This document shows positions 2,890 through 64,000 of a stretch of 64,000 nucleotides of DNA, piece after piece; position 1 is the first letter of the stretch; each line of letters opens with the position of its first letter. The translations under genes and the position numbers were made by a program. The DNA is from Terriglobia bacterium (GTDB lineage: Bacteria; Acidobacteriota; Terriglobia; Bryobacterales; Bryobacteraceae), in assembly GCA_021324185.1 (NCBI GenBank), contig JAJPJN010000180.1:1-64000 (forward strand). The letters are read 5' to 3'. The notes under the pieces are model-generated. The model was given only the letters and a program-made list of their open reading frames with translations. It had not been told where the DNA came from and ran no database searches.

Positions 2890-2945
2890 TGAAATGTCGG
2901 ATCTCCCGCTATGATTCTATAACTCGGGTGTTTGTTGGGCCGAAG

Positions 2946-3941
2946 TCATTTACAGGGCCGGTCTTCTTCGCCGGTGATTTCGCGCCAGCGATTGATCAAA
3001 TCCTGGCAGGCGCCGCGCCAATTCGGGAAATGAAATTCAAAGCCGGCATCGAGCAGGCGTTTGGGGATAACTCTGCGGCTCTTCAGAATCAGCTCTGTTT
3101 CGGTAGCCATAAAAAGCGCGCCGATCCGGAGCGCCCAACTGGGAGCGGGCAAGCCGATGTAACTGGTGCAATAGGTTCGCCGGAGAATGCACATGAATTC
3201 GCGGTTTCTCTCCGGGCAGGGCGAGGCCAGGTTCACGATGCCTTCCATATCCTCTCTTTGGATGAGGAACTCGATGGCACGCACGAAATCGACGTCGTGA
3301 ATCCAGGAGATGTATTGCGTACCGGGGCCGGATGGGCCGCCTAAGCCCCAACGGACCAGGCGTAACAGATGATCGAAGATGCCGCCGGGATCGGGGCTCA
3401 TAGTCATCGCGCTGCGGAGGGCCACCTTTCTGGTACCCGGCGTCTGCGCGGCGAAGAACGCCTTCTCCCAACTCGTGGCCACATCGATGCTAAAACGCCA
3501 TCGGGGCGGCGCGCCAGGCTCGTCGCCCCCGATTTCGCCGCTGAACTCGTCCATCGGCCTATCAATCGCGTGGCGGTAGATGGTGGCAGTACTTGCGTTC
3601 ATCCAAAGCCGGGGTGGTTTTTTCGCAACCGAGATGGCGTCGCCGACCAGGCGGGTTGTGAATATGCGGGAATTCTTGATTTCCCGCCGGTTGGCGGCGT
3701 TATAGCGGCAATTGACGCTGCGGCCTGCCAGATTGATGACGACATCCGCGCCGTCAACTTCTTTTATCCAGGGACCTAAATTCTCCCCATCCCACAGAAC
3801 GACGGGCCATTCGGCCTCTACCGGATGGCGGGCGATGGCGGTAACCGAGTGGCCCTGCTCGCGGAAATGCCGCGCCAGGATGTTACCCACCTGCCCTGTA
3901 CCTCCGGGGATGACGATGCGCAGGGGACGTGCAACGGGCAT
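2946..3941 (-). CDS. TIGR01777-type SDR epimerase
   Basis: Predicted NAD(P)-dependent extended SDR of the YfcH/TIGR01777 family, whose substrate is generally unknown. The Rossmann motif GGTGQVG lies at the N-terminus (RIVIPGGTGQVGNILARHF). The C-terminal segment LKSRRVIPKRLLDAGFEFHFP is the typical DUF1731 ending, where the protein trails off into a 'G-F-x-F-x-x-P' motif. I place the start at the ATG at 3939-3941, because the glycine motif normally sits within the first 20 residues; an upstream ATG at 3974 would add 11 residues. Neither has a convincing ribosome site. It follows the outer-membrane protein gene, separated by a terminator. Confidence 0.88.
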   Translation of the reverse strand: MPVARPLRIVIPGGTGQVGNILARHFREQGHSVTAIARHPVEAEWPVVLWDGENLGPWIKEVDGADVVINLAGRSVNCRYNAANRREIKNSRIFTTRLVGDAISVAKKPPRLWMNASTATIYRHAIDRPMDEFSGEIGGDEPGAPPRWRFSIDVATSWEKAFFAAQTPGTRKVALRSAMTMSPDPGGIFDHLLRLVRWGLGGPSGPGTQYISWIHDVDFVRAIEFLIQREDMEGIVNLASPCPERNREFMCILRRTYCTSYIGLPAPSWALRIGALFMATETELILKSRRVIPKRLLDAGFEFHFPNWRGACQDLINRWREITGEEDRPCK

Positions 3942-45886: not shown

Positions 45887-47905
45887 TCAGCTAATTCTGA
45901 AACCCAGTCTCTGGGCTTCCTGAAGGATCTTTTCGCCTTGCTGGATCTGCTTCCTGCTCGGTGGCTTATTTTGCGCCGCCAGCCTGCCCAAACTATATGC
46001 CAGAGCACGCTGCCACGGTGCAAGATTGCCCGTCTCTTTTGCCCAGCCCGAGATGGCAAACCATTCGTCGGCCGGGATAACACGAATCCGGGCATATGCT
46101 TCCATGTCAGCCGAACCGTCCCTCCTCACCGTGCCACTGTCCGGCGAGAAGTCGCGTTGCGTGACGATCGGCCGGAGCAGGCCAGAGGGAATGCCGATCT
46201 CGCACGTCCTGAATTTTTCCCAGCACCGCTCTTTCTTAGCCCATTCCGTCACGTTGCCGCCCTGCGCTCCCTCAATAAGATGATCGTAGGCCGCTTTCGA
46301 GATAATCCTGATAGTCTCATCAAGCTCCTGGGACAGAGCTTGAGCTTTCCATATTCGTTCAAGATCGATCTTCTGTGCAGTATGGTGTGAAAGCCACGAG
46401 AGAGTATAGGTCACGATATTTGCCCGATAACCGCCGTAGTTCTGCGCCTGCACGAGTTTCTCGCCCCGTCGGAACAGGATGGCCTTTGCAATGAGGTGAC
46501 GGAAATAAGCATCATCCGGCACCGGAGGCTTTTTGTCCGCAAGTTCGGCCATGAACTCAACGAAATTCTTCTCAGCGCCGCGGCTGACCATATGGGGTTT
46601 CTGGTCCCATGTGTATTCGAACTTGGCGAGATCGGTTTTTGTGAACTTCTGCGAGACCGGGTGTTGGATTTTCCAACGTTTGCGCTCGCCGGGGCTTCCC
46701 GCTCGCGCCAAAGCGTCGTTGTAGCTCCCCCGCGCCCGTTCATAGTACCAGCGTGTCTCGATTTGCGTTCCAGCCAGCGCAGGCGCCCAGATTGTGCGTG
46801 AGAGTTCCTCGACACACAAATGAAACGGATGATTCGCAGAAAAATCCGCGGTGTTGACTTTGTTTTGGCTGTTGGCGTACAGGGAAATTCGCGGCGCGAG
46901 TTGATCGATAGATGCTGGGTCTTTCGGAACGGTGAGCTTCACCTGAACCGAAATGTTGCTGACATCCGCTCTGTCCTTTTTGACAGCCGTGTAGAGTGAT
47001 GCCGTCGTCTGTCCGCCGTTGACGATCTGGAAACTTTCGGCACGGGTCAGGAGAATAGCATTCCCGTGATTTTCGAATTCGACGCGCTCTGCCGTGGCCG
47101 AAATTCCGTTGTTGTATGCCAGAAAGCGCTGCGGCTCTTCGAGAATGGTATCGCGGATTCCGCGATTGATTTTGCCGCGTGCTTGAAGAAACGAGCGGAC
47201 GTTGCGTTCGAGAAGCCGGGCGCCATATCTTTCGTAAATCCTGACCAGCAGGGAAGCGGGGAAATAGCCCACATATGTTGTGTACTCATAAGCCGGGTCG
47301 GCGGAGCGGATGCAGACCACACGCCCCCCGAACTCCTGAAATTTTACGTCAATGGCTTCGCGCTTTGCACCGGAGGTCTCCATCCGGAAAATACGCTCGA
47401 TATCCCAGACGTGGTGAGTAAAGTTCACGCCTTCGATGACAACGTCTTTGTATTCCCGCGCCGATGTCAGGCCATCTGTCAAAAGGAACAGCCGACCTCG
47501 TGTGACATCACCTCTCGCCGAGTGGATTGAATCGGCAGCATCGAACTCCGGTGAACTTTCTTCCAGGCCTGCGCGAAAGTTGTCAGTCAGCGCGCGCTGA
47601 AAAAACCCGCGCAGCCGGCTGAAATGCCGATCTATATCCGCGGCCGGTACACGCTGCGGCGAGACATGTTTCGTGTAGATGGTTACAAAAAGGTCGATGC
47701 AGTCGTTATCGGAGGATACATTGTAGGCGTTGATTTTGTATCCGCGGCCATCGCAGTTACAGAGAATGAAGCCATCGGCCTCGCCTGCATCGGTCATGGC
47801 CTCAATGACATCCTCCGTGAAAACATCAACTTCGTAGTTTGAGCTGTCGGAGCCCCGGACAAGCACATCCTGCCGGAGGTTTTCGGCAAACTCCTCAAGT
47901 GTCAT
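45887..47905 (-). CDS. AIPR-family abortive-infection phage-resistance protein
   Basis: A 672-residue cytoplasmic protein of the AIPR (PF10592) family, first noted in lactococcal abortive infection. The diagnostic motif is FLAYNNGISATAERVEFEN, then SFQIVNGGQTTASLYTA, followed by ISVQVKLTVPKDPASIDQLA and ANSQNKVNTADFSANHPFH. Aspartate/glutamate residues in the N-terminal half may form a nuclease-like fold, but no catalytic site is certain. The start overlaps the preceding PD-(D/E)XK gene by 11 nt, so AIPR is the last gene of the six-gene operon. Its role with the operon is inferred. Confidence 0.9.
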   Translation of the reverse strand: MTLEEFAENLRQDVLVRGSDSSNYEVDVFTEDVIEAMTDAGEADGFILCNCDGRGYKINAYNVSSDNDCIDLFVTIYTKHVSPQRVPAADIDRHFSRLRGFFQRALTDNFRAGLEESSPEFDAADSIHSARGDVTRGRLFLLTDGLTSAREYKDVVIEGVNFTHHVWDIERIFRMETSGAKREAIDVKFQEFGGRVVCIRSADPAYEYTTYVGYFPASLLVRIYERYGARLLERNVRSFLQARGKINRGIRDTILEEPQRFLAYNNGISATAERVEFENHGNAILLTRAESFQIVNGGQTTASLYTAVKKDRADVSNISVQVKLTVPKDPASIDQLAPRISLYANSQNKVNTADFSANHPFHLCVEELSRTIWAPALAGTQIETRWYYERARGSYNDALARAGSPGERKRWKIQHPVSQKFTKTDLAKFEYTWDQKPHMVSRGAEKNFVEFMAELADKKPPVPDDAYFRHLIAKAILFRRGEKLVQAQNYGGYRANIVTYTLSWLSHHTAQKIDLERIWKAQALSQELDETIRIISKAAYDHLIEGAQGGNVTEWAKKERCWEKFRTCEIGIPSGLLRPIVTQRDFSPDSGTVRRDGSADMEAYARIRVIPADEWFAISGWAKETGNLAPWQRALAYSLGRLAAQNKPPSRKQIQQGEKILQEAQRLGFRIS

Positions 47906-48911
47906 GCGATCGGCTCTCCCTGATCAGAGTACGAATCCTTGCAGGTTCAACCTCGAAAGCGGCGCACGCTGCCAGCGCCACCATGTAGCTCAGATCTCCT
48001 ACGCCGTCGGGCAGAACGGCGGGCACCCTCGGAAACCCCTTCCCGACTCTGAAAGCTCTTATCCTCTGAAGAACGTAGCGCCTTTCGTAACGCGGGAAGT
48101 GAACATCGAGACAACCATAAGCAACAAGCTTCTCGTCGAAAACATTGCGAGCCGCGCTGTGGCACAGCAACTCGCGAACCGATTGAACAGTCTCCGGGAG
48201 ACTGAACCCGCCCGTCACCACTTTTTCGAGGAGAATCGCAACGAGGTAAAGAGATGCAAAACCGGTGTCGTCAAGCTGGCGCTCCCCGGAAATATGTACT
48301 TTCGTATGCTCCCGTGAGGTGCTGCATTTCACCTCGACTGCGCCGCACGCATACTGAAAATCCTTGCTAAGCGGCTCGGGCATAGCCCAGGAGGAAACCG
48401 CAGCCTGAGGGCTCTCGCATTCCGGAATCACGAAATCACGCAAAAAGAGGAGTTCAGCAAGCAAGCCCTGCACCGCAATTTCGGACAGGCCCTCGCCTCC
48501 GCTCGATTCAAAAAAGCGCTTCCACCGATCGAGCCGGCCGAGAAAGGCGGGAAGCGCCTGCATGGCAACGGGACGCTGGAAGACATGTTCCGCCACGTCA
48601 CTGGCGACATAGCTGAAAACCTCATTGAAAGAAGGCGCTGCCGATTCTATAAAGAGATGCAGGTGACCAGTATCTCCGGAGAATCGCTTCACGGCTGTGA
48701 TGAATCCGCGACTCTGGATCAGCGGGCCGTCCGAAGCGCGTGGAGGCGAGGCAGTCTGAAGTAGCAACATGCGCGTACCACTGGGATGACGGGTACCCAC
48801 AAACAAGCCATCACGGGATCGCGGATCTATCCGGCGCACTGTGACACCGGCCTCGGGATTGTGACCGCAGGCGCCGGTCTCCAGGCCCTCCCAGAGGTCG
48901 CCCAGATTCAT
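47895..48911 (-). CDS. PD-(D/E)XK motif protein (DUF4420-like)
   Basis: Predicted nuclease-fold protein, 338 residues. The core motif occurs mid-protein: VQGLLAELLFLRDFVI (alpha-helix with Glu), then SKDFQYACGAVEVKCSTSRE, where Asp and Glu-x-Lys complete a PD-(D/E)XK site. The N-terminus WEGLETGACGHNPEAGVTVR resembles DUF4420 proteins found beside Z1 ATPases. It overlaps the Z1 gene by 4 nt and AIPR by 11 nt. Cleavage activity is inferred from the motif. Confidence 0.85.
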   Translation of the reverse strand: MNLGDLWEGLETGACGHNPEAGVTVRRIDPRSRDGLFVGTRHPSGTRMLLLQTASPPRASDGPLIQSRGFITAVKRFSGDTGHLHLFIESAAPSFNEVFSYVASDVAEHVFQRPVAMQALPAFLGRLDRWKRFFESSGGEGLSEIAVQGLLAELLFLRDFVIPECESPQAAVSSWAMPEPLSKDFQYACGAVEVKCSTSREHTKVHISGERQLDDTGFASLYLVAILLEKVVTGGFSLPETVQSVRELLCHSAARNVFDEKLVAYGCLDVHFPRYERRYVLQRIRAFRVGKGFPRVPAVLPDGVGDLSYMVALAACAAFEVEPARIRTLIRESRSHDT

Positions 48912-51718
48912 TGCAGCTCGAACTCCTGCTGCCAGTAGATATTGTTGACACGGTAGATGATTCCGTCATCGCCCGATACAGATGGGAAGCTCAGTGCTAT
49001 TCCAAAAACCGGTCGTTCTGTAGGGACTGGAATATCCGGGTCTTCTTCGGGCGTCCTTCTTTCATAAAACTGGACCGGATAGATGAGAAGAAGGCCACGA
49101 CTTGCCGGGCGCACGTCGCGTATAAACGGACCGCTCGCGTCAGTGGGTCTGTTCTCGCTCCGCTTCTCAGGATCTTTCTTCTCCCAGGCATTGACAGTTC
49201 GCTGCAGGGCATCAGCCCGCTCGTCGTGGGAGAGATCAAGCTGCTCGTCGGATCTGCTGACGATCCGTCGTACGCACTGCTTCGAGTCATCTGAGAACAC
49301 TCTTTCGCGGCGCGTCAGCCTGACTCTTCCGATTGGCGGAATGTCGCATTCCATCTCGGCCGTGCCGCCCTTGAGTAAAACAACGGACCACTCGGTCAGG
49401 CCGCCCTCGCCGGTTTTTTTGCCGATGAACCTCGCCATGCTGTCGCTGTTCACTTTGAGAGCCTCCGGATGCGTGCGGTAATCCTGGAGGAACCTGATGA
49501 CTTCCTCCGCCGGCACTCCGGACCATATACTCCGTGACCGGTCATCCTTTCGCGCCACCACGGCCTCTGCGCGCGCGAGAAATGCCTCGACAGCTTCCGC
49601 ATTCTGCCGAAGGATGTCGGGGTCCTTGAAGAGGACAATAGTTTCCGCGATAGTTCCGGAGAAGGAAACCTTCATTTCGGTCCCGGTCCGCAGCTTGCTC
49701 GCACCGGTTATCTGCAGTCCGTTGGGATGCGTGCGGACACGAAGACCGTAATCCCGCGGCGTACCGCCGATCGCCGCCATGTGCTCAAATTCTCTCTTGA
49801 GCTCCGCCGAAGCCAAGGCGATATGTCGGTACCAGGTAGTCAGATCCGCCGTTGTATAGAGGCGACAGAGATCCAGATACCCCGGCCGATACCCGAACCA
49901 CCGTCCCATCTGCATGAGAGTGTCATACATTCGCGAACTACGCAGGAAATAACTTACCGAGAGCCCTTCCAACGTCAGTCCTCGCGAGAGCTTGTCACCG
50001 CCGATGGCGATAACGCTCACGCCGTTAGGGTTGTTTCTATAGTCCAGAACATCGGCTACGGTTCCGTTGATGACACGAACCGTAATCGCAGTTGCGGCCT
50101 CGACCAGATGCGGTTCCACATCTTGCCAGGCGAGCCGAACAATCTCCGCATCATTAATGCCCCGGTCAAGAATTGTTCCCGTGGTCGCTTCGAAATCACT
50201 CTCCCATTGTTCCTGAAGCTGATCGCGAAGCGGCGGTGTGTAGTTGCCATCCCCATACCGAAGGCGGTTAACCAACGAATGAAGCTCGGTCCGCACAGCC
50301 TCGGCCACCGCCTGCTGCACGGAAGTGAATCGTGTCACGTGAACCAACATGGAATTGTGTTCCAGCTTCTGCCCGCGCGCGCGGCGTGCGGCACAGGTGA
50401 GCATGAAGGCGCGTATCGCCTCGCGAAGCGATTCGGGGAGGCCCTGTACCAGATAGCCGTTCCTGTGTCCGCTCGGCAGCCACGGCTCGGAATCCCGAAC
50501 TGTTCTGATGACTGGCAACCCGTCCTGCTCAGTCAGTATGCCCGCTTCGGGGTCGCGGTCCAGACCGAAGACCTGCTCCGGTCCTATGTAGTTGGAGGGA
50601 GTCGGAAGTGCGACGATGAAGCTGCGCGGGAACAGGCCCTCGCCGTGCGCTGCCGTTTCGTCGGATGGATCGATGAAGATGTTGGCGAAGGGTGTTGCGG
50701 TGTAGCCCACGTACGCGCTTTTCTGAAAGGTATCCAGCAATTGCCGGATCATTCCGTTGATGGCCGTCACATCATAATCAGTCAGTGAGTTGCCGTTCTC
50801 ATCAACCGGGATCGGTTTGGTATTGACAGAAGCGTTATCAGCCTCATCGTCGATCACCAGCAGGGGCACTCCAGAGATCCGCTGGCGTCCGCCTGTGCCG
50901 TCATGCGCGCGCAAGCTAAGCCACTGCCGCAGGTTCTCGAGAATGCCTTTGTTCTTTTTGACGACGACCACGACCGGATCATTACCTCCCGGAATAACAC
51001 CGATCTGGTTCGCAACAGTCCGGTTGAAGTCGCCGTCTTCGGCACTGCCCGTCAGAGAATGGGCGACCGGCTCGTCCTGCTCGGAGCGTCGGAGCCCGAC
51101 ACCCAGTCTCTGATTGTTCTGGTTATAAGCTGTCGCCCGGTGGGTATTGAATCCCAGAAAACTTTCGTCCATGCGAAACTGTGTTTGACTTCGCAGGCTG
51201 TTCAGCATCCCCGCAAGAATCACGATCACGCGATAGCCCGCATCCGCCGCCTTGCAGACTAGACCAGCGTAATTAGCGGTCTTTCCGGACTGGACTTGGC
51301 CCACAACCATGCCCCTGCTGTCCCAAGCCCCCTCGCGTCTCGGATTCTCCACTAGACCTAGGATTCGGTCGGTAAGATCATCGAGACGGTTTACAACTGC
51401 CGTGCTCCATTTCAGATCTTCCAGCAGATAGTCCCTGTAACGGTTCCAAAACCGCCAGTTAATGCCGGCTTTGCTGTTCGGCAGCCAAGGCTGATGGTCC
51501 TTGCGGTCCTCCAGCACCATTTCATGTCCGATTGCGACATTGCAAAGATTCTCGACTTGGCGGATAAGCCGGTCGCGCTCGCGGGTCAGTTCAGGATGAT
51601 CAACGGTGAGGACCGCGAGCACCGTGTCAACACGACGCCGGATCTCCTCCTCTGTTGGTGCTGCTGTCGGCCGAAGCAACATCAGAACCATCTTGAGGGC
51701 TTCATCGAAAGCGGTCAT
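48908..51718 (-). CDS. Z1-domain superfamily II ATPase
   Basis: A 936-residue ATPase related to superfamily II helicases. Walker A is GQVQSGKTANYAG (140-152), Walker B is PLLVIDDEADNAS, and motif III is YVGYTATPFANIFID. The Z1-specific C-terminal half has IAIGGDKLSRGLTLEGLSVS and LMQMGRWFGYRPGYLDLCRL, with arginine-finger-like residues. Z1 proteins accompany MORC-like ATPases and methylases in predicted restriction systems. It starts in a 4-nt overlap with the GHKL gene and ends in a 4-nt overlap with the PD-(D/E)XK gene, implying fixed stoichiometry. Confidence 0.94.
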   Translation of the reverse strand: MTAFDEALKMVLMLLRPTAAPTEEEIRRRVDTVLAVLTVDHPELTRERDRLIRQVENLCNVAIGHEMVLEDRKDHQPWLPNSKAGINWRFWNRYRDYLLEDLKWSTAVVNRLDDLTDRILGLVENPRREGAWDSRGMVVGQVQSGKTANYAGLVCKAADAGYRVIVILAGMLNSLRSQTQFRMDESFLGFNTHRATAYNQNNQRLGVGLRRSEQDEPVAHSLTGSAEDGDFNRTVANQIGVIPGGNDPVVVVVKKNKGILENLRQWLSLRAHDGTGGRQRISGVPLLVIDDEADNASVNTKPIPVDENGNSLTDYDVTAINGMIRQLLDTFQKSAYVGYTATPFANIFIDPSDETAAHGEGLFPRSFIVALPTPSNYIGPEQVFGLDRDPEAGILTEQDGLPVIRTVRDSEPWLPSGHRNGYLVQGLPESLREAIRAFMLTCAARRARGQKLEHNSMLVHVTRFTSVQQAVAEAVRTELHSLVNRLRYGDGNYTPPLRDQLQEQWESDFEATTGTILDRGINDAEIVRLAWQDVEPHLVEAATAITVRVINGTVADVLDYRNNPNGVSVIAIGGDKLSRGLTLEGLSVSYFLRSSRMYDTLMQMGRWFGYRPGYLDLCRLYTTADLTTWYRHIALASAELKREFEHMAAIGGTPRDYGLRVRTHPNGLQITGASKLRTGTEMKVSFSGTIAETIVLFKDPDILRQNAEAVEAFLARAEAVVARKDDRSRSIWSGVPAEEVIRFLQDYRTHPEALKVNSDSMARFIGKKTGEGGLTEWSVVLLKGGTAEMECDIPPIGRVRLTRRERVFSDDSKQCVRRIVSRSDEQLDLSHDERADALQRTVNAWEKKDPEKRSENRPTDASGPFIRDVRPASRGLLLIYPVQFYERRTPEEDPDIPVPTERPVFGIALSFPSVSGDDGIIYRVNNIYWQQEFELQ

Positions 51719-53217
51719 CGGATTCCCCTCTTATCAAGAATTGCCGGTAGGTTGGCGATGAATTCGGACAGCCGGTTGAACGGTTCCATCCGGTAAAGGC
51801 GCGCAATGGCATCCTCACGTGAGACTCCGGTATGGACCAACGCCTGATAGAGTTGCACCGCCAGTTCGTAGACTTCGCCTGATGCGGCCTGTTCGAACGG
51901 CACCGCCTCGCTTTCTGGCTTTTGGGATTTGTTTAGGATAATCAACGGGACTGGGACCGATTCCTCGATCAGTCGCAGCGCCGATTTGAGGATGTCAGCA
52001 TCGGGGGGCGCATCACTCAGGATTCTGCGGATGAGCGGATGTTCTCGATTAATCCGATAGAAGATTTTTCCGTGACTCACCTTCTGCTGCCATACGAACA
52101 AGCTTTCCTCGGCATGAGCCCGGCCGAGCACACTACCGCGATGCCGATATATATCGACGGCTTTTTCCCTGGTCGCCCTCCCGATTCGTGCCAGAGACTC
52201 CTTCAGTTCGACCGGAACGCGGGCTGTGCTCTTCTTAATGTCTAAGCCCCAGAGAGCATCAAGCGTGTTCGGCAGGTCGATTCTGATCCGTGCCAGCTTG
52301 TAATGCTCTTCCTTCTTGATACCCAGCCCGAGCCAGTCGCCCGGAACCAGTAACCGGCCGTTACGGTAGATAAAGAAGCCCTGATGCGCCACCCACCCGT
52401 GCGGGCCGCCAGCGTCCGCATATTCCTGCGGCGTTAGTTTGGAGTGATGCGGAAGAATATAGGCATCCACGGCGACCGTTTCGCCCTTCATCATGAGAAT
52501 CTCGGGCTCGGGATGCTGTGTTGATGGATGCGTGGAGAGGAACGGGTCCCAAGGCTTTACCGGATTTCCGTTGATCCGCAAAGTCACGCCGCGCGGTCGT
52601 TGGAGAAAACGGTGAAAAACCATCGCCAAGTGTTTCTCTACCGCTTCGATCCGGTCGTTAAACACGTCACGGTCATACGCGCTCTCGGCCAAGGTCCCGC
52701 TTACCAGTCGGTCGAGATTCTCCCAGACGACGGCAGTTCCGGATTTGCCAATGCGCGCTGAATATTCCGCGGCCTTCGGGGACCCTCTGCGAAGAACGCG
52801 CCACTGGCATGTGGCGCGAACGTAATCGAGATCCCAGCACCGCGTCCAAAGACTCGATACCTCGGTCCTCGTACTGACGATCACCCGGCGGCATTGAGAG
52901 AATGAGGCCGTCTTCAGCCCCAGCCCAAAGCGCCCCAGATCTTCCCGGTGCCGCGGCTGTGTCGGATCGGCACCGATCCGCATCGCCGCGATCAACTCCT
53001 GTTCCGACATCCCCGAACCGTTATCGATTACAGCAATACTGGACGCCTCGCCGTTCCAGAAAAAAACTATATCGATCTCTGTCGCATCGGCAGTCAGACT
53101 GTTATCTACCACGTCAGCTATGGCAGTGAAGAGATCGTACCCGACCGCTCTCAGCGACTCGATCATCGCCGGTGCATACGGCTCGACGATATCGTAGGAA
53201 TCCTTGGCTGTAGGCAT
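51715..53217 (-). CDS. GHKL (MORC/HSP90-like) ATPase
   Basis: Predicted ATP-dependent clamp-like protein. The GHKL site is complete: AIADVVDNSLTADA (N-box with Asp38/Asn39), VIDNGSGMS (65-71) and GRFGLGLKTAS (95-105). The region after residue 250 (PEEYADAGGPHGWVAH-like, YRNGRLLVPGDWLGLG) resembles the S5-type transducer of MutL/MORC, and the C-terminus is helical. No kinase His domain is present. It sits 2 bp after the methyltransferase and overlaps Z1 by 4 nt. It probably couples ATP-driven DNA capture to cleavage in the operon. Confidence 0.91.
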   Translation of the reverse strand: MPTAKDSYDIVEPYAPAMIESLRAVGYDLFTAIADVVDNSLTADATEIDIVFFWNGEASSIAVIDNGSGMSEQELIAAMRIGADPTQPRHREDLGRFGLGLKTASFSQCRRVIVSTRTEVSSLWTRCWDLDYVRATCQWRVLRRGSPKAAEYSARIGKSGTAVVWENLDRLVSGTLAESAYDRDVFNDRIEAVEKHLAMVFHRFLQRPRGVTLRINGNPVKPWDPFLSTHPSTQHPEPEILMMKGETVAVDAYILPHHSKLTPQEYADAGGPHGWVAHQGFFIYRNGRLLVPGDWLGLGIKKEEHYKLARIRIDLPNTLDALWGLDIKKSTARVPVELKESLARIGRATREKAVDIYRHRGSVLGRAHAEESLFVWQQKVSHGKIFYRINREHPLIRRILSDAPPDADILKSALRLIEESVPVPLIILNKSQKPESEAVPFEQAASGEVYELAVQLYQALVHTGVSREDAIARLYRMEPFNRLSEFIANLPAILDKRGIR

Positions 53218-53219
53218 GT

Positions 53220-54812
53220 TCAGACCGCGGCACCTCCCGTGTACCGGGCGGAGGCACCCTCGCTACGACCTTTGAGGATCTCCAGGACTATAGCGGCAAT
53301 CTGGCGTGCGAGCAGGGGTGGAACGGCATTGCCGACCTGGCGATATTGATGGGTTCTGGGACCACAGAAATAGTAGTTATCGGGAAACGTCTGAATTCTC
53401 GCCGCTTCCCGGACGGTCAGACTCCGGCACTGCGTCTCGTCATAGTGAATGAAATAGTGACCGTCTTTCGCGATGTGGCTCGTTATGGTCGTAGCCGGGC
53501 GAAAGGCTATCTGAACCCGGAACCGGTCGTCAAAATAGCCCTTGCTCAATGCATCGCCGAGGCTTCGGTGCCTAGGATGAAGCTCGGGTGGGAAATCGTT
53601 CAATTCCGGGGAGCGAAAATGAACCCGCGCAAAACAGGCCGCGAAGAGGTATCTATGGAGATCAGCTGCCATGTGCGGGCGGCTTGCGTGGTTGCACGCG
53701 CCGCCGATTAATGGATCGAGAAACCATCCCGGCTCGTATTCACAGGTGGTGTTGTGAGCGACAAATTCGCTCCCGCGATTAGCCTGCATATCGCGCAAGT
53801 TATGCACAGTCCGGACGATACACTCCCGCAACTCCCCTTCCGCTCCGTTTCGTCGCGATTTCATGAATCCGGTATCCAGTATTGATGCGAGCGCCGCGCG
53901 CCACTCTTCCCTTCCGTCATTGGCACGTGTCAGCCCACTGCGCAGGCGTGGAAGACCCCTCAGCACTTTGCTTGCGGGTATCGGCTGGTTGTGGGGCCGC
54001 AACGCCACGAACCCGTCGAAAGATAGGTCCTCGCGTATTCCGAGAATAATTACGCGATGGCGCGCTTGTGGAATCCCGTACTCCTCGCATTTGATGACAA
54101 AATCGCCCGGCTTGTAGTGGGGATGGCCGTCAAGGGAATGAGTGGGATATTTCAGGCAAAGCGAACGCAGGGTATATTTTGCACCTCCGCGTTGCGCGCC
54201 TCGGATCACTTTCGCCGGATGATGGAGATCATCCAGCATCTGGTCGAAGATTTCGTTGCCTTTGACTTCGGATGACAACAGCCCCTTTACGTTCTCCATG
54301 ATGAAGACGGGCGGCTCGTGAACGGAAAGAATTCTCAGATATTGTTTGTAGAGATAGACGCGATCATCATCTTCAGCAATGCCGCCGTTTCGCGACCTTC
54401 CAACGACAGAAAACGCTTGACAGGGCGGACCACCACATAGGACCCATGAGTCCGCACGTCCAAGTGCATTCCGAATCCTGCGGTCAACTTCGCTTGCCTG
54501 AACCACCCCAAGCTCAGCCTTCCAAGCCTCATCTCCGGCGGCCTTCGCCTCAGCGGGATATCGGGCGAAGAGTTCGAGGCGTCCAAGCTGCCCGCGCAAA
54601 TGATCGTAGTAGTCGTGGGGAACTTTTCCCACCGGAAACTGCCGGAAGAAACTCCTGAGTTCGAGCGTCCGATGTGCCCATTCCTCCATCTCGATGGATA
54701 GAGCGATCCGGAACTGGCGAGAGCCGCGCGCAGAAGCAAGCGCGGAGAAGCCCTCCCCAAGCCCTCCGGGACCGGCGAACAGGTCGACGACGGGAATAGA
54801 TTCAGCGGGCAT
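53220..54812 (-). CDS. DNA (cytosine-5) methyltransferase
   Basis: Modification enzyme that transfers a methyl group from SAM to C5 of cytosine in a specific site. Motif I VDLFAGPGGLGEGF (9-22), catalytic motif IV GGPPCQAFSVVGRSR with Cys131, motif VI FIMENVKGLLSSEVKG, motif VIII RHRVIILGI and motif X RQVGNAVPPLLARQIA are all visible. The target-recognition region lies between about residues 290 and 430. Length 530 is long for the class, owing to insertions after motif II. It overlaps the vsr-like gene by 11 nt and precedes the GHKL gene. The site recognised is unknown. Confidence 0.95.
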   Translation of the reverse strand: MPAESIPVVDLFAGPGGLGEGFSALASARGSRQFRIALSIEMEEWAHRTLELRSFFRQFPVGKVPHDYYDHLRGQLGRLELFARYPAEAKAAGDEAWKAELGVVQASEVDRRIRNALGRADSWVLCGGPPCQAFSVVGRSRNGGIAEDDDRVYLYKQYLRILSVHEPPVFIMENVKGLLSSEVKGNEIFDQMLDDLHHPAKVIRGAQRGGAKYTLRSLCLKYPTHSLDGHPHYKPGDFVIKCEEYGIPQARHRVIILGIREDLSFDGFVALRPHNQPIPASKVLRGLPRLRSGLTRANDGREEWRAALASILDTGFMKSRRNGAEGELRECIVRTVHNLRDMQANRGSEFVAHNTTCEYEPGWFLDPLIGGACNHASRPHMAADLHRYLFAACFARVHFRSPELNDFPPELHPRHRSLGDALSKGYFDDRFRVQIAFRPATTITSHIAKDGHYFIHYDETQCRSLTVREAARIQTFPDNYYFCGPRTHQYRQVGNAVPPLLARQIAAIVLEILKGRSEGASARYTGGAAV

Positions 54813-55218
54813 TGTCCTCCAATGCGCTAACGAGGCGAGCCTGCAAACTGGCCTCGTCGCTGAGTTCGCATTCCCACACTATGATTACGTGCCAGCCTAG
54901 CGCCTCAAGCTCACGAGTATTTGCCGCGTCCCGCGCTACGTTTCCCTCAAATTTCCGCCGCCAGAACGTGGTCCTCGTCTTCGGCATAACGGCATTCTTA
55001 CAACCTGTATGGCGGTGCCAGAAACACCCGTGCACGAAGATTACGGTATGCCAGCGTGGGAGCACGATGTCAGGTTTGCCAGGCAGCCCACGACGACCTA
55101 GAGTGAAACGAAACCCTTGGCGATGCAGCAAGGACCGGACTCGTCGCTCCGGGACCGTATTGTGCCCGCGGATGCGGCTCATATTCCAGCTACGGTGGTG
55201 TGGCGTCAGGCGATCCAT
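54802..55218 (-). CDS. vsr: Very-short-patch-repair (Vsr-like) endonuclease
   Basis: Predicted nickase of T:G mismatches formed when 5-methylcytosine deaminates. The motifs MSRIRGHNTVPERRVRSLLH, LPGKPDIVLPRWHTVIFVHG and CFWHRHTGCKNAVMPKTR match the Vsr fold, including the catalytic Asp, the HGCFWH zinc/His segment and the NxxFW-like FWRRKFEGNVARD. I use the ATG at 55218; a TTG at 55233 is an alternative. Length about 138 is normal. As first gene of the six-gene operon, it precedes the matching methyltransferase, as in classical dcm-vsr loci. Confidence 0.93.
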   Translation of the reverse strand: MDRLTPHHRSWNMSRIRGHNTVPERRVRSLLHRQGFRFTLGRRGLPGKPDIVLPRWHTVIFVHGCFWHRHTGCKNAVMPKTRTTFWRRKFEGNVARDAANTRELEALGWHVIIVWECELSDEASLQARLVSALEDNAR

Positions 55219-55462
55219 TTTGCTTGAACACAAAAATTCCCTTGCTCGTTGGCCACGATTACATCTGGCCAGCGATCATACTGGTCCAATATCGGAAATT
55301 GTTATTTTACTTCCAGAGCGTTGATAGGAGACGACGGGTAGGCTTTATCTGAGGGAACGGAATTTCAACGCAGTTTGACCGTGGCCCAACACTGCAATCT
55401 GTAATCCAAGTTACAATCCCAAAGGGCTTGGTGGCGATTCAGCGCCCCTGGCCCGTTCCGCC

Positions 55463-58383: not shown

Positions 58384-60315
58384 TTACGCTCCTTTCGTCG
58401 TGTGATATTCCTCAAGGAATCCAAGCTCCGCCTGCGTCAGGCGCTCAGCCGGAGCCGTTTCAGGCTTGCTGATCTTATTGCGCGTGCGTCCAACGGGTTT
58501 CTGCGAGATCACTCGGCCATCCTCGACGGCTAGAAACTTAGTGGGCGGCCGTATGCTCGCGCGAGCTGTGAGCACCGGATCAAGGAAATAAAGCATTTGA
58601 GTGCCGAGGATGGGGTACGTGCCGCTTACAAAAATCAACATCTGACCCGGCGCGACGATCTTCTCTGTATTGCCGGCGGCCTCTTTTTCGGGTGGCTTGA
58701 GGCGCAGCACTTCATCAGGGGTCATGAGCGGACGTTCCACATAGTCAACGCTTGCGTTCATGTGGCCCATTACGGGCGAGAAGCGGGAACCGGAAAAGTT
58801 GTAGCTGGCCTTCTGAACCGTTTGCCTGCCGGTCATGCGGCTAAGCAACTCAGCAGTTTCCACCTGGTTCGGTGCGAACGCGATTCTTACATGGCAGTTC
58901 GAGACGATGCTCTCGTTATTTCCGTACGCATCCACAATCTGCCGGATATCCTGCGTGATCAGATATGCCTTCAGGCCGTATCCCGCCATGTACGATAGGG
59001 CGTCCGCAAAGACTTCCATGCGGTTGAGGGATGGGAATTCGTCAATGAGCAACAAAAGGCGATGCCGGTTGCGAATCTGCTGTGCTCCTTCAAAGATCAT
59101 CTTTTCGGTGAGTCTGTGAACGATCATTGTGAAGATCAAGCGGATCAGAGGCCGCAACCGGATCTTGTCCGATGGCGGGACAACCAGGTACAGTGAAATC
59201 GGCCGCTCGAAGTTGACGAGATCGGCGATTGTAAAGTCGCTCGCTGAAGTGTTCTGAGCTACGAGAGGATCGCTGTATAGAGTCAACGCCGTCTTAGCGG
59301 TGCTCAGCACGCCGCCGAAGTCGCGATCCTCTTTATCGAGCATTTCTTGAACTTTTTCTTTGACGACCGGATGCGTCACTGTCCTCTCGCCAGTCGGCAT
59401 CCGCCATCCACGACCGCCTTTCGGATCGTGCTCGGCGTTGAGCAATTCAGCGAGCGTATCCCTAAAGCTCGAACCAGGAGTTGTAAAGACATGCGCGAGA
59501 TCAGCAAGCGAAGCGACACGCCCCTCACGTGCCGCCGCATAACAGACATGCAGAATCATCCCGGTTGTGATGGAAGCTGCTGCATCCTGCCAGTAGCGTT
59601 CTTGCGGACTATCCTCGCCGGTTCGGACAATCATGTTTGCGATGTTCTGGGCATCTGAAACATCACGCGGCGTAAATAACCGGACTTCCGCGAGCGGGTT
59701 AAATCTGGAGCTGCTCGATTGCTCGACGGGAGAAAACTTGAAACAGAGATGTCCCTGCTGAGCGCGAAATCCCGCGGTCTTTGCCCAGTTCTCTCCCTTG
59801 ATGTCGTAGATCACTGCTGATTCGGACCAAGCCAGCAACGTCGGAATAACCAGGCCCACACCTTTGCCGGAGCGCGTTGGCGCGAATGCCAGAATGTGCT
59901 CCGGCCCGTTGTGGCGAAGGTAATGAAGGCGGTTCGAATTGTCAGCGCGCCAAGCGCCCACGTACGCGCCCTGCTGTGCATCCATTAAACCTGTCGCGCG
60001 GATGTCTTCTCGCGTTGCCCAGCGCGCGGAGCCGTGGAGGTCGTCGGCATTCTCCATAAGCTTGCGGGAGTGCCTGCTCGCCGCTACAAAGAAGAGACCT
60101 ACACAGGCGCAACTGCCGGCGAATACCAGCATCTCACCGAGAAAGAGCGGCTTCCGCACTCGCAGATCTTGTGATGTTGAGTTGTGCCATCCCCAAATCA
60201 TCCAGGCGAATGGTTCATAGATGCCGCCGCCCTTCGTGCGAATAAGAGGTCTGCCCAGAGCTGGCTGGTATTGAAAATTTGCCGCGATAAATTGAGTGGC
60301 GGCAAAATTCACCAC
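58384..60315 (-). CDS. traG: VirD4/TraG-family type IV coupling protein
   Basis: Membrane ATPase that delivers the relaxase-DNA complex to a mating channel. The N-terminal region has TM segments (PFAWMIWGWH and LFLGEMLVFAGSCACVGLFF). Walker A is FAPTRSGKGVGLVIP (Lys151), and Walker B is LLLLIDEFPSLNRMEVF. Other family motifs are VIYDIKGENWAKTAGFRAQQ and the later TQDIRQIVDAYG. Length 643 is normal. The GTG start shares one base with the relaxase stop (TAGTG). No type IV channel genes were found in the window to receive it. Confidence 0.94.
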   Translation of the reverse strand: MVNFAATQFIAANFQYQPALGRPLIRTKGGGIYEPFAWMIWGWHNSTSQDLRVRKPLFLGEMLVFAGSCACVGLFFVAASRHSRKLMENADDLHGSARWATREDIRATGLMDAQQGAYVGAWRADNSNRLHYLRHNGPEHILAFAPTRSGKGVGLVIPTLLAWSESAVIYDIKGENWAKTAGFRAQQGHLCFKFSPVEQSSSSRFNPLAEVRLFTPRDVSDAQNIANMIVRTGEDSPQERYWQDAAASITTGMILHVCYAAAREGRVASLADLAHVFTTPGSSFRDTLAELLNAEHDPKGGRGWRMPTGERTVTHPVVKEKVQEMLDKEDRDFGGVLSTAKTALTLYSDPLVAQNTSASDFTIADLVNFERPISLYLVVPPSDKIRLRPLIRLIFTMIVHRLTEKMIFEGAQQIRNRHRLLLLIDEFPSLNRMEVFADALSYMAGYGLKAYLITQDIRQIVDAYGNNESIVSNCHVRIAFAPNQVETAELLSRMTGRQTVQKASYNFSGSRFSPVMGHMNASVDYVERPLMTPDEVLRLKPPEKEAAGNTEKIVAPGQMLIFVSGTYPILGTQMLYFLDPVLTARASIRPPTKFLAVEDGRVISQKPVGRTRNKISKPETAPAERLTQAELGFLEEYHTTKGA

Positions 60316-61760
60316 TACCGGTCGCGCGTGCGATTACGGCCGCGCGCCTGCGACGGATCTTCAAGCTCGATGGCGGCTTGTTTCACCGCACGTTGATATT
60401 GTCCTAGCCACCCACCCCAGCCGTCCTCGTTCGGCAAAATTCCCTGCTTGAGCAGTTGCTGCGCCTGGCGTTGGAAATAGCGCCGGTTTTTCAGAAGGGC
60501 TTCTGAGTCCCCAAAACCTTCGATCTCAAGGGTCGATTGCTCATCACCCAGAATCCGGCGCAACCGCACAAAGCTATTCGTCCGCAGCTCTCCGCGTGCC
60601 AGCGTGTCTTCCATTTCCCGCGTGTACTCGATGTAGTGCACGCGCGCATCAACACCTTCCAGCATCAAGTAATGACGGCCGGATTGCTCATCTTCTCCAT
60701 GCATCAAAACTCTGCCTTCAACTGAGGTCATCTGCCGAAGATCAAGGGCTTCCATCGGAAGCCGTTCATCAGATAAGAGAACGCCGTGTGCGGCAAGCAA
60801 TTTCTGCCGGTCACCCGCACGTTGCATGGCTCGAAGCACGCCTGCAATATCCGACCGTAGACTCCAGACTCCTGGAGCTACGGATCGAGCAAGACCCATG
60901 TTTTCGAGAACCTCTAAGCGGCAGATCAAGTGCTGCCGCTGTATCCAGGCAAAATCGTTTTCACCCGATTTGCGACCGCCGGGCGGGATTTTCACATTCC
61001 ATGATGGTGCGCCCGGAATCAAGTCGGCTCTGCGCAGAATCATGCGATCAAGCGAGGTAAAGCGCTTTTCCCGAATTTCGCGCCGCTCGGCTTCGGCGGC
61101 ATCCAGGTCTGTGCGGTGCCCGAGCTGCCGTGTGCAAAGGTCCTCAGCCGCGCCGCGGATTCCGCTCTTGACATATTCTCGCGGCAACCGGACCTCCCGT
61201 TGATCCCGCCCTACGCCTCTCAAGGCGACGTGGACATGCGGGTGCTCGGTATTGAAGTGTGCAACGGCAACCCAATCCAGCGGAGTTTCCAAATCACTTT
61301 CCACCTGGGTCATTAATTCCCGTGTCAGCCGCACCAAATCGACGCGCTCTCCAAATTCCGGCGAGATGATCATTTTCCAGAGCCGGCGATCCCCCGCCGA
61401 TTGCCACAAGTCGAGCCGGCCGCCGATGTCGATCCCGTGCTTCTCCGCATCGAATCCGGCCGCCGCAGGAGCAGTAGCGGCGCTCTCCCGCGCAATGTAC
61501 CGGCCGTGTGCGCGCCACTGGCCGCGTACGGTGTTGCGCGAGTACGTGACGCGGACCGCACATCGCTGATTTCGCGGTATTGGCGCGCGTTTCGCCCCGC
61601 TCCGCCCCGAGTCTGTCCTGGCTTTTCGTCTACGGCTCGTGCGCGCATAATGCGCGATGGCCTTGAAAGCTAATGCACAAGCCGCGGACTCGTTTCGCTT
61701 CCGCGGGATCGGCGGTTTTCGCGGGCGGAGCCGGAATTCCCGCTCCTCACCTTTCGCCAT
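60315..61760 (-). CDS. Relaxase (VirD2-like, DUF3363 type)
   Basis: Predicted nicking and strand-transfer enzyme acting at oriT. The three-His metal site is HFNTEHPHVHV (His173, 175, 177). Upstream is VTYSRNTVRGQWRAHGRYIA with candidate nucleophile Tyr73 or Tyr88. The C-terminal domain (GRVLMHGEDEQSGRHYLMLE, EVLENMGLARSVAPGVW-like HTH) is the DUF3363 region typical of plasmid and ICE RlxS-type relaxases. At 481 residues it is shorter than the ~600-680 usual, and lacks a helicase. Overlaps the RHH gene by 14 nt. GGTGAG precedes the ATG. Confidence 0.91.
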   Translation of the reverse strand: MAKGEEREFRLRPRKPPIPRKRNESAACALAFKAIAHYARTSRRRKARTDSGRSGAKRAPIPRNQRCAVRVTYSRNTVRGQWRAHGRYIARESAATAPAAAGFDAEKHGIDIGGRLDLWQSAGDRRLWKMIISPEFGERVDLVRLTRELMTQVESDLETPLDWVAVAHFNTEHPHVHVALRGVGRDQREVRLPREYVKSGIRGAAEDLCTRQLGHRTDLDAAEAERREIREKRFTSLDRMILRRADLIPGAPSWNVKIPPGGRKSGENDFAWIQRQHLICRLEVLENMGLARSVAPGVWSLRSDIAGVLRAMQRAGDRQKLLAAHGVLLSDERLPMEALDLRQMTSVEGRVLMHGEDEQSGRHYLMLEGVDARVHYIEYTREMEDTLARGELRTNSFVRLRRILGDEQSTLEIEGFGDSEALLKNRRYFQRQAQQLLKQGILPNEDGWGGWLGQYQRAVKQAAIELEDPSQARGRNRTRDR

Positions 61761-62163
61761 TGCTCACCAGGTCATGCATCGCGAGCTTGGCATCCCCGAC
61801 CATGGCGCGTCCGGCACTCTTGAGAAGCCGGTCGTATCTTTCCTTTGCGCGCGCAACAGCCTGCGGCTTTGCATCTGCGGGTGGCTCCGGTATACGAGTC
61901 AGAATCGCCTTGGCTAACGTGTCCAGATATGCGAACAGGGCCTGCTGCACCCGCATGAGCCGATAGAGATCCTTTCGGACCTGCTCGATGCTCGCGGCCA
62001 AACGCTCTTCCGCGCCGGTGAGGCCGTCTTGACGCTCGGATAGTTCTTGGTCGACGGCGTACCGGATGAATGCCGTAGGTGAAGGGAAGTTACGCTCGCG
62101 TGAGACTCGGTCTATTTCCTTGGCAAGTTTTTCTGTGAACCCAATGGTCCGCTGGCGTCGCAT
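61747..62163 (-). CDS. Ribbon-helix-helix relaxosome accessory protein
   Basis: A 138-residue protein with an N-terminal RHH DNA-binding unit (RTIGFTEKLAKEIDRVSRER, then FPSPTAFIRYAVDQEL) and a coiled-coil middle (EERLAASIEQVRKDLYRLMR). Such proteins bind near oriT and help the relaxase nick. The gene is the first on the minus strand after the palindrome/repeat region, divergent from the + strand gene, which fits an oriT-binding autoregulator. It could also control plasmid-type partition, but no ParA is nearby. Confidence 0.8.
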   Translation of the reverse strand: MRRQRTIGFTEKLAKEIDRVSRERNFPSPTAFIRYAVDQELSERQDGLTGAEERLAASIEQVRKDLYRLMRVQQALFAYLDTLAKAILTRIPEPPADAKPQAVARAKERYDRLLKSAGRAMVGDAKLAMHDLVSNGER

Positions 62164-62228
62164 AGAAAGTGCAGCTTCTAAGTACTAAGAGACGCTCAGC
62201 GCCAGTAAGGGACGAACGGCGGCAAGGC

Positions 62229-62246
62229 GCATCCCAATTGGGATGC
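62229..62246. promoter_or_regulatory. 18-bp perfect palindrome in the divergent transfer-control region
   Basis: GCATCCCAATTGGGATGC is a perfect inverted repeat; its half GCATCCCAA recurs at 62318-62326. It lies 66 bp upstream of the RHH accessory gene. Likely an operator or relaxosome-protein site; the nic site itself was not identified. Confidence 0.7.
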
Positions 62247-62397
62247 ATGCTGCTGAAATTGCATCGCAGCCAACACACTGTAGAAAAGGAGATAACGGTC
62301 AAAAACAAGCAGCGCTGCATCCCAACTCCTTTATGTTCCACTACCCACTATCCCCGGCGCTGTCGCGCGGGGGATCGGCCATGCTCTGCCCCCAATC

Positions 62398-62461
62398 TGT
62401 TGGCTTTTGTTGTAAATTGTTATATCTGTTGTAAACTGTTGTAGTCTGTTGGGAGTTGTTA
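62398..62461 (+). repeat. Seven TGTT(G/A) repeats phased at about 10 bp before a start codon
   Basis: TGTTG or TGTTA begins at 62398, 62408, 62418, 62427, 62437, 62447 and 62457, nearly one helical turn apart, and the last touches the ATG of the next gene. Three (62426-62451) are in a strict 10-bp CTGTTG array. The stretch is AT-rich against a GC-rich surrounding. It may be an operator array, or an oriT/iteron-like site. Confidence 0.7.
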
Positions 62462-62899
62462 ATGGCCCAAAATTCACGGCGAGACCTCACTACTACGGCT
62501 CGTGCCCGCCTCGCGGCGTTGCGCGAGAAAAAGCCGCCTACCAAGGCTGCGCAGATCCGGGCGCTTTGGCCGGACATCAAAGCGGCTCTCGACGGCGGGC
62601 ACACTCTCCAGAGCGTATGCGAGTGCCTTGAAGCCGACGGCATAAACGTGGATACCCGCAGCCTGGCCGTTTACGTCAGCCGAATTCGCAGAGCGTCTGC
62701 CGGAAATACCGGTCTTCGCAGTTTGCCCTCCCCTAATGGTGAGCAATTCGAGCGAGAGGACACACAACCAGTTACCGAAGCATCCACTTCGAAGGCGAAG
62801 CAATCAGCCGATCCACTGGCGAACATTCGGGACCGGCAAGGGAAGCGGTCAGGGTTCGACTACCGACCGGAATTAGCCGATCCGAAGGAGTTGATCTAA
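62462..62899 (+). CDS. Putative transfer-associated DNA-binding protein
   Basis: A 145-residue basic protein divergent from the relaxase operon. The conserved part reads RIRALWPDIKAALDGGHTLQ-like sequence (IRALWPDIKAALDGGHTLQS), then CECLEADGINVDTRSLAVYV and SRIRR. This pattern, seen from memory beside relaxases and called TraK-like or unnamed, suggests a helical DNA-binding domain. The C-terminal tail is polar (EREDTQPVTEASTSKAKQSA). I use the ATG at 62462; the open frame begins two codons earlier. The right border of the transfer module follows it. Confidence 0.6.
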   Translation: MAQNSRRDLTTTARARLAALREKKPPTKAAQIRALWPDIKAALDGGHTLQSVCECLEADGINVDTRSLAVYVSRIRRASAGNTGLRSLPSPNGEQFEREDTQPVTEASTSKAKQSADPLANIRDRQGKRSGFDYRPELADPKELI

Positions 62900-63004: not shown

Positions 63005-64000
63005 TCACTCATATCGCAGCGCTCGCGCCGGATCAATCCGAACCGCATGGCGGGCTGGGAGCACGCAGGCGCAAAGAGCCGTAGCGCCAAGCAATGCCAC
63101 GATTACGGTCAGGGTCAGCGGATCATTCGGCCGGACCCCAAAGAGCAAACTTTGCAAAAATCGCGCCGCAATCATCGAGCCGACAAGGCCGACAAAAACG
63201 CCGATAATAACCGGCCGGAAGCCTGCCGTCAGCAACAATCGGAGAATATGAGTCCGTGTAGCGCCTAAAGCTAAACGCACGGCGATTTCCGTTCGCCGCT
63301 GTGCGGCATAATACGCAACCACGCCATAAATTCCAATCAAAGCCAATAACAATGCAGCACAGGCGAAGACATCAGAAAGCTGTACTTGAAAATAGCGGCG
63401 GGATAGTGACTCGGAAACGAGCCGCTGCATCGTAATCGCTTCAGGAGCTGGAATGGAAGAATCTAACTCCCGAATGCGCTTGCGAATGGCGGGGATGATG
63501 CTGGCCGGATCGCTCGCAGTCCGAATCACAAGCGCGCCTGAGCCCAGGCCCCTATGCCAGTACGGCACATAGACGGTGAGAGTGGGCTCCCGGTCGAGCG
63601 TCGTGGCATGGACATCCTTGACAAGGCCGACTACGGTGGCTTTGCCAACCATCGCTCCTGTGCTGAAGCTCTTTCCCAATGGGTTCTGCCCTGGCCAGAC
63701 CTTCGCCGCCACGCGTGCCGAGATCACCGCGACGGCTCGGCCGTGATCGAACCGATCAAATACCCGTCCTTGGATTAGCGGAATTCCGAGCGTTTTGAAA
63801 TAATCCGGGCTTACGTACCGTACATTATTTCAATTAGCTTTTGTGTGGCTGGGTCAAGCATCTCCTGACTTGCGCCTTCCGGCGTAATGCCGTTGACCAT
63901 GGATTCGCCGGTCAACGGCAGCTTCGACGTGTAGGCGGCAGATTTCACGCCAGGAATTGGCCGGAGTGCTTCAAGTGACCGTTCCCAAAAGCGAATATCA
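63005..64000 (-). pseudogene. Acidobacterial orphan MacB-type ABC permease, frameshifted and partial
   Basis: The C-terminal 240 residues are intact: LGKSFSTGAMVGKATVVGLV, FACAALLLALIGIYGVVAYY, RRTEIAVRLALGATRTHILR and the ending RHAVRIDPARALRYE, typical of the permeases duplicated in Acidobacteria. Reading further upstream in the same frame gives VRYVSPDYFKTLGIPLIQGR, then a stop. The preceding family segment (RFWERSLEALRPIPGVKSAA, then PLTGESMVNGITPEG and DPATQKLIE) lies in another frame ending at a TAA. The frame break lies near 63820-63830. The N-terminus is beyond the window. Confidence 0.82.

Follow-up and report, generated by a model that had tools for sequence, protein, structure and literature searches.

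A conserved core and a helically phased repeat array in a very probable origin of transfer of an Acidobacteriota conjugative element

The closest described counterparts of the locus reported here are found in two plasmids, R388 and RP4. In R388, two sets of five 9-bp repeats with 2 bp between them, the stbDRs, are bound in vitro by StbA; they are required for plasmid stability, and transfer is blocked by StbA when StbB is missing (PMC3098194). In RP4, TraK binds an intrinsically curved region of about 200 bp and represses traJ and traK, and the origin of transfer (oriT) of this type carries a TraJ site near the nicking site, nic (PMC7314908). The present analysis concerns positions 62164-62461 of a 64,000-nucleotide stretch, here called the window, of contig JAJPJN010000180.1 from a Terriglobia bacterium (assembly GCA_021324185.1). 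This region lies between two divergent genes. The one on the left encodes a ribbon-helix-helix (RHH) protein and is followed by a relaxase gene, while the one on the right encodes a protein designated K. Judged from its sequence and that of its relatives, the region is very probably the oriT of a conjugative element of a soil bacterium of the Acidobacteriota.

Upstream of the K gene, seven pentamers (TGTTG, TGTTG, TGTTA, TGTTG, TGTTG, TGTTG and TGTTA) start at positions 62398, 62408, 62418, 62427, 62437, 62447 and 62457. Their spacings are 10, 10, 9, 10, 10 and 10 bp, and the last one abuts the ATG of the K gene at 62462. The longest chain with 9-11 bp steps found in 5,000 dinucleotide-preserving shuffles of the region had 2 members, against 7 observed, and the longest pentamer chain on the opposite strand of the window was 1. 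The coordinates and the shuffles thus confirmed the seven phased TGTT(G/A) repeats running up to a start codon that had been described in a first-pass annotation, which was made from the sequence alone. The same annotation had placed all of them on one face of the DNA. Here the phasing is real, but the mean spacing is 9.83 bp and not 10.5 bp, which by arithmetic gives a drift of about 0.4 turn over the seven sites in relaxed B-DNA; one-face placement therefore needs wrapped or twisted DNA. When the window was compared with its closest relative, locus L003, all 28 TGTT letters were found to be kept, while 10 of the 38 remaining array positions were changed (P 0.002).

A relaxase scan of genome contigs revealed 35 relatives, mostly loci derived from metagenome-assembled genomes; the host genome itself consists of 184 contigs. 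The order K, intergenic region, rhh and relaxase was found in 11 of them, all from Acidobacteriota, and an rhh gene, an intergenic region and a divergent K gene beside DUF3363 relaxases were also observed in betaproteobacterial plasmids. Periodicity was measured as the autocorrelation of 3-mers beside the conserved core described below, summed over 20 loci. The K side of these putative oriTs was strongly periodic (z = 17.3 at lag 10, 14.8 at lag 20, 9.3 at lag 21 and 5.6 at lag 30) and the RHH side was not (z = 1.0 at lag 10); the z values overstate independence, as some loci are related (L004/L005, L010/L012/L014, L017/L044 and L041/L042), but the repeat words nevertheless differ. Taken singly, 17 of 21 oriTs scored higher than 99% of 2,313 control windows drawn from the same DNA. 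Conservation of the spacing in relatives, which had been proposed as a check on the array, was thus observed.

The spacing is constant and the word changes by lineage: TGTTG, GAAAC, GCGGA, CGGGG, GACAC/CAGAC and TAAGC were found. A Massilia plasmid (L078), located by its core alone, carries seven AAGAC-type repeats exactly 11 bp apart. Word similarity tracks the identity of the K domain (Mantel r 0.68, p 0.0002); with RHH identity partialled out, the correlation is 0.42 (p 0.002). Such co-variation would fit binding of K to the phased direct repeats upstream of its own gene. The word TGTTG is common to two K groups that are about 40% identical over the domain, and both have VYV(S/H)R in the last helix (residues 70-74 in the window protein). 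In a post hoc comparison, the K groups associated with GAAAC and GCGGA were found to have D/E before the tyrosine, or before its cysteine replacement, as opposed to VYV(S/H)R.

Alignment of K with 13 IncP-type TraK proteins by hhalign extended over the whole length, including the C-terminal tail (E 2.5e-14, 121 columns), and alignment with R388 StbA covered the DNA-binding domain (96.6%, E 5.8e-10, 58 columns). K therefore shares the homologous DNA-binding domain of the StbA/TraK superfamily; its position, divergent from the relaxosome operon across the oriT, is that of the superfamily in the window and in 11 related loci. Window K alone gave nothing significant in Pfam or NCBIfam, and the family is visible via its relatives only: 9 of 13 K members matched PF17273 (DUF5338, TraK), none of them over the cut-off among the matches listed (best relative 25.2 bits; R751 TraK, 100.5 bits). 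On these profile comparisons, K is a homologue of TraK and StbA and not a member of PF17273. The structure model has helices at residues 28-34, 36-44, 49-58 and 65-83, with a moderate predicted local distance difference test score of 83-87 for the block of the DNA-binding domain, and the rest is disordered. A Foldseek search of the model against the PDB returned nothing at E < 1, and a sequence search gave no solved structure of any TraK relative.

The most conserved element of the region had been overlooked in the first-pass annotation, which made no comparison with TraK/srk or StbA/stbDR either. It is a core with the consensus CTTTATRTTCC, nearly always followed by ACTA(C), which lies between rhh and K in each of the 11 order-sharing relatives; in the window, CTTTATRTTCC with its ACTA occupies 62329-62343. 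Apart from the window, about 21 distinct related loci hold it with 0-3 mismatches; they come from Acidobacteriota, Betaproteobacteria (plasmids and contigs) and three Acidisarcina plasmids, and in most of them relaxase genes of the same family lie beside it. In an alignment of 19 sequences, 11 columns were invariant. Among 396 Acidobacteriota genomes scanned, only 2 held the core, and a relaxase search of 396 genomes at E 1e-30 recovered the own genome only. As the core adjoins relaxase genes and lies between divergent accessory genes, it is read as probably the relaxase recognition and nic region. The nic site is predicted within or just 3' of CTTTATGTTCC on the + strand. An Rfam search over the region gave no match.

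On the RHH side, both the 18-bp palindrome and the third half-site of the first-pass annotation were located, together with a fourth, imperfect half-site (Table 1). The palindrome and half-site positions recur across lineages, at -101 to -104, -88 to -92 and -66 to -71 from the core. Copies of the 9-mer adjacent to the core, direct or inverted, are found again at about -70, -90 and -101, with words that differ among lineages. The statistic for this clustering was 611-676, compared with 329 ± 30 and a maximum of 452 in 400 shuffles. The half-site 4 bp from the core would correspond to the TraJ-like site near nic of RP4-type (MOBP) oriTs. As for K, nothing significant in Pfam or NCBIfam was obtained with the window RHH protein alone, and the family is visible via relatives only, with RHH_1 matched by 8 of 13 aligned members (best E 1.6e-7). 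The first-pass annotation had assigned an RHH protein to one side and a putative DNA-binding protein to the other.

From the relaxase end to the K end, the window and L003 are about 85% identical. This identity collapses only at about 62050-62320, where the RHH DNA-binding domain is 58% identical and the RHH-side operators 51%; the C-terminal part of the RHH protein is 95% identical. The RHH DNA-binding domain and its operators have apparently been swapped as one unit between the two loci, with K and the array kept, and this joint exchange suggests that domain and operators are therefore functionally paired. The relaxase-oriT-K block as a whole looks like an exchangeable cassette, within which the swap of RHH domain and operators is nested.

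The relaxase gene heads, after rhh, a minus-strand IncP-like operon that comprises rhh, the DUF3363 relaxase, traG, ssb and traF. The protein is a member of DUF3363 (Table 1). It scored 22.1 bits against PF03432, below the cut-off of 24.6, and its similarity to RlxS (NF041267, E 3e-60) amounts to 204.5 bits against a curated cut-off of 850, which leaves it outside that family.

Because a near-invariant core adjoins relaxase genes, we consider it highly likely that the region is the oriT of an IncP-like conjugative element, with the RHH protein on the relaxase side, K on the phased array and the core as the probable nic region. The RHH protein, bound to its half-sites including the one next to the core, would bring the DUF3363 relaxase to the core, and the relaxase would nick in or beside it. 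Copies of K would bind head to tail, one per pentamer and helical turn. The K-covered segment, as a wrapped, stiffened or filamentous nucleoprotein, may remodel the nic-proximal DNA for the relaxosome. By covering the ribosome-binding site and start codon of K, it should also keep K repressed, and the divergent rhh-relaxase operon may be repressed with it; the RHH protein on its half-sites would likewise act as a repressor of the divergent genes. Such repression of K by array-bound K is probable, given that the array reaches into its ribosome-binding site and start codon and that traJ and traK are repressed by RP4 TraK (PMC7314908). The relaxosome platform and the repressor that the first-pass annotation had offered as alternatives could both be right: the former is well supported by the conserved spacing, the TraK/StbA homology of K and the core beside relaxases, and the latter probably holds for K.

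Several observations weigh against this assignment. Window K scored 12.8 bits against PF17273, under the gathering score of 25.9. YATCCTG, the nic consensus of RP4-type (MOBP) oriTs, is not matched by the core, and the nic position is accordingly a predicted one. Three loci (L006, L020 and L039) displayed no significant periodicity, and in three others (L014, L047 and L078) an array occurs without a recognised adjacent K gene. Finally, no traL gene lies beside window K; a traL-like gene is on another contig, and a gene for TrbE/VirB4, the ATPase of the type IV secretion system, is on a third.

A possible alternative, which we find less convincing, is that the array serves mainly for centromere-like positioning, in the way of the stbDRs for StbA, and that K anchors the element to the nucleoid so that it is stably inherited. 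K would then restrain transfer unless a TraL/StbB-like ATPase is present, and its adjacency to the oriT would be a switch and not a help to the relaxase. K is indeed close to StbA, the stability of R388 depends on the stbDRs and its transfer is blocked when StbA acts in the absence of StbB (PMC3098194), and a traL-like ATPase gene follows K in relatives. In most of the other complete relatives, traL- and traM-like genes come after K, as in IncP; they are absent after window K, and this lack of an adjoining traL speaks against the positioning role as well, as does the fact that the element may be a plasmid or not. A BLASTP comparison of StbB with the traL-like ATPase was not significant. K as chiefly a relaxase helper, like RP4 TraK, and K as chiefly a positioning or transfer-restraining protein, like R388 StbA, are not mutually exclusive.

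It is unlikely that the array is an operator only, with K as a cooperative autorepressor that has no DNA-processing role. The run of the array into the ribosome-binding site and start codon would fit such a role, and so would the repression of traJ and traK by RP4 TraK (PMC7314908). However, arrays persist at the three loci without a recognised adjacent K gene, several arrays end well before the K start, and a scan of the region for sigma-70 promoters and terminators found none. Static curvature of phased tracts with no protein reader is very improbable: GCGGA, CGGGG and GACAC are not A-tracts, the words co-vary with K and the TGTT letters are selectively kept, although the helix phasing fits the requirement for curvature and RP4 TraK binds an intrinsically curved region (PMC7314908). 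Helically spaced direct repeats beside the gene of a DNA-binding protein might suggest the iterons of a replication origin, but this is hardly credible, as K is TraK/StbA-like, no neighbouring replication initiator was found (no such family was matched in Pfam or NCBIfam) and the arrays adjoin a core of the oriT type that lies next to relaxase genes.

Table 1. Features of the putative oriT and of the adjoining genes, in window coordinates
Feature	Position	Strand	Basis
TraG/VirD4 coupling protein gene, same operon as relaxase	58384..60315	-	NF010453, 594.3 bits (cut-off 586)
Relaxase gene, DUF3363 domain, distant RlxS relative (MOBP/VirD2-like)	60315..61760	-	PF11843, 57.6 bits (gathering score 28.4)
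RHH (CopG-type) accessory protein gene, in place of RP4 traJ, overlaps relaxase start	61747..62163	-	RHH_1 matches of relatives; conserved beside relaxase
Palindrome GCATCCCAATTGGGATGC, 18 bp, two putative RHH half-sites, about -101 and -90 from core	62229..62246	.	Positions recur across lineages
Imperfect putative RHH half-site TGCATCGCA, -69 from core, fourth half-site	62260..62268	+	Sequence match
Putative RHH half-site TGCATCCCA, -13, 4 bp from core	62316..62324	+	Relatives: different word, same offset
oriT core CTTTATGTTCCACTAC, probable relaxase recognition/nic region	62329..62344	+	Conservation in related loci
Inverted repeat ATCCCC-GGCGC/GCGC-GGGGAT, hairpin just past core	62350..62375	.	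DNA fold -12.2 kcal/mol, z -2.2; partly kept, in L003 only
Array of 7 helically phased TGTT(G/A) direct repeats, predicted K binding track	62398..62461	+	Spacing, shuffles, conservation in L003
K gene, 145 aa, StbA/TraK superfamily; DNA-binding domain of helices, then a disordered linker and a conserved C-terminal tail	62462..62899	+	hhalign; PF17273 in relatives; structure model

Around the transfer genes, window positions 47895-55233 hold DUF4420, Z1, HATPase (MutL-like), C5 cytosine methylase and Vsr genes, which together make up an island for restriction or defence. Immediately after the K gene (63005-64000), an FtsX-type permease gene is apparently broken into two frames. DNA similarity to L003 stops at both ends of 60319-62899, that is, at the relaxase end and at the K end.

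Some of the core-bearing loci deserve separate mention. The Acidisarcina polymorpha plasmids pACPOL2 (L041), pACPOL4 (L042) and pACPOL3 (L043) have the oriT core and its flanks in common. Only pACPOL3 is among the relaxase matches listed; pACPOL2 and pACPOL4 are typed as non-mobilizable and may be mobilised in trans. The Massilia forsythiae plasmid of 23 kb (L078), typed as non-mobilizable too, has its core and repeats around position 2501 and carries a probable orphan oriT. Locus L047, from genome G139, combines the core with a divergent RHH gene and phased TTG repeats; no relaxase of the same family came up in its genome at E 1e-30, and the locus may be a mobilisable element. At positions 5000-5450 of L014, the core and a GCGGA array are kept with no K gene behind them, and an open reading frame (ORF) that by eye is carbonic-anhydrase-like follows; weak K-like tblastn matches in this locus fell within another gene and were discarded as spurious. 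The Granulicella plasmid pACIX904 (L077) has, within 2740-3020, the core and a near-copy, CTTCATGTTCCACTAC, about 220 bp upstream.

A core search of IMG/VR, which served as negative control, gave 16 exact matches, about the number expected by chance, nearly all apparently within unrelated coding sequence and with no phasing. On one IMG/VR contig (L062) the core, at 3259-3274, lies outside the large ORFs, with weak 10-bp periodicity and ORFs that look terminase-like by eye; this may be a chance match. A Rhizobium match (H116) was rejected, being a gene-like stretch with a partial core only.

The locus points to a conserved oriT core for a class of DUF3363 relaxases. For this class the literature searched yielded none, and the phylum is one with little known conjugation biology. 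The core sequence allows orphan oriTs to be found, as in the three Acidisarcina polymorpha plasmids and in the Massilia plasmid with its perfect array. The array also offers a direct test of how StbA/TraK proteins read DNA, and it links the curved region of RP4 TraK and the stbDRs of R388 as one design of phased arrays with fixed pitch and drifting words. As a tentative generalisation, which could well prove wrong, oriTs of the TraK/StbA type may combine a fixed nic core and a fixed geometry of accessory sites with words that drift together with both accessory proteins, the specificities being swappable as cassettes. Their arrays would fall into two pitch classes, one of about 10 bp in the Acidobacteriota elements studied here and one of about 11 bp in IncP, IncW and betaproteobacterial DUF3363 plasmids, the first shorter and the second longer than the 10.5-bp helical repeat. 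If true, the two classes would wrap or twist the DNA near nic in opposite senses and store opposite supercoiling.

Compared with R388 (IncW), the window has the same arrangement: the stbA gene is divergent from the relaxosome operon beside the oriT, StbA is homologous to the DNA-binding domain of K, and helix-phased direct repeats lie upstream of the gene, with lags of 11, 22 and 33 bp on the stbA side. R388 differs in its MOBF relaxase and in its 9-bp repeats, TTGCATCAT, which form two sets of five with a pitch of 11 bp, whereas in the window a single set of seven pentamers is spaced at about 10 bp, the relaxase belongs to DUF3363 and stbB/traL is missing beside K. In RP4 and R751 (IncP-1), the order is also the same, with TraJ and the relaxase on one side, a divergent TraK on the other and the oriT between them. 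TraK is homologous to K over its whole length, traG and traF belong to the relaxase operon, and the traK side of IncP-type plasmids is periodic (z = 13.4 at 11 bp and 11.3 at 22 bp). Unlike these plasmids, the window lacks YATCCTG and the traL and traM genes after K, its array has a pitch of 10 bp and not 11 bp, and its relaxase is of the DUF3363 type. The combination of a DUF3363/RlxS-like relaxase with TraG and TraF is shared with ICEMlSymR7A and the integrative and conjugative elements of the Tn4371 type (PMC2789088, PMC8627217); the window relaxase differs from their RlxS, reaching 204 of 850 bits, and the core was not found at the proteobacterial RlxS-like loci L021-L036. The array is thus an instance of how StbA/TraK systems mark an oriT, and what is new is its 10-bp pitch, its short words, the relaxase class and the phylum.
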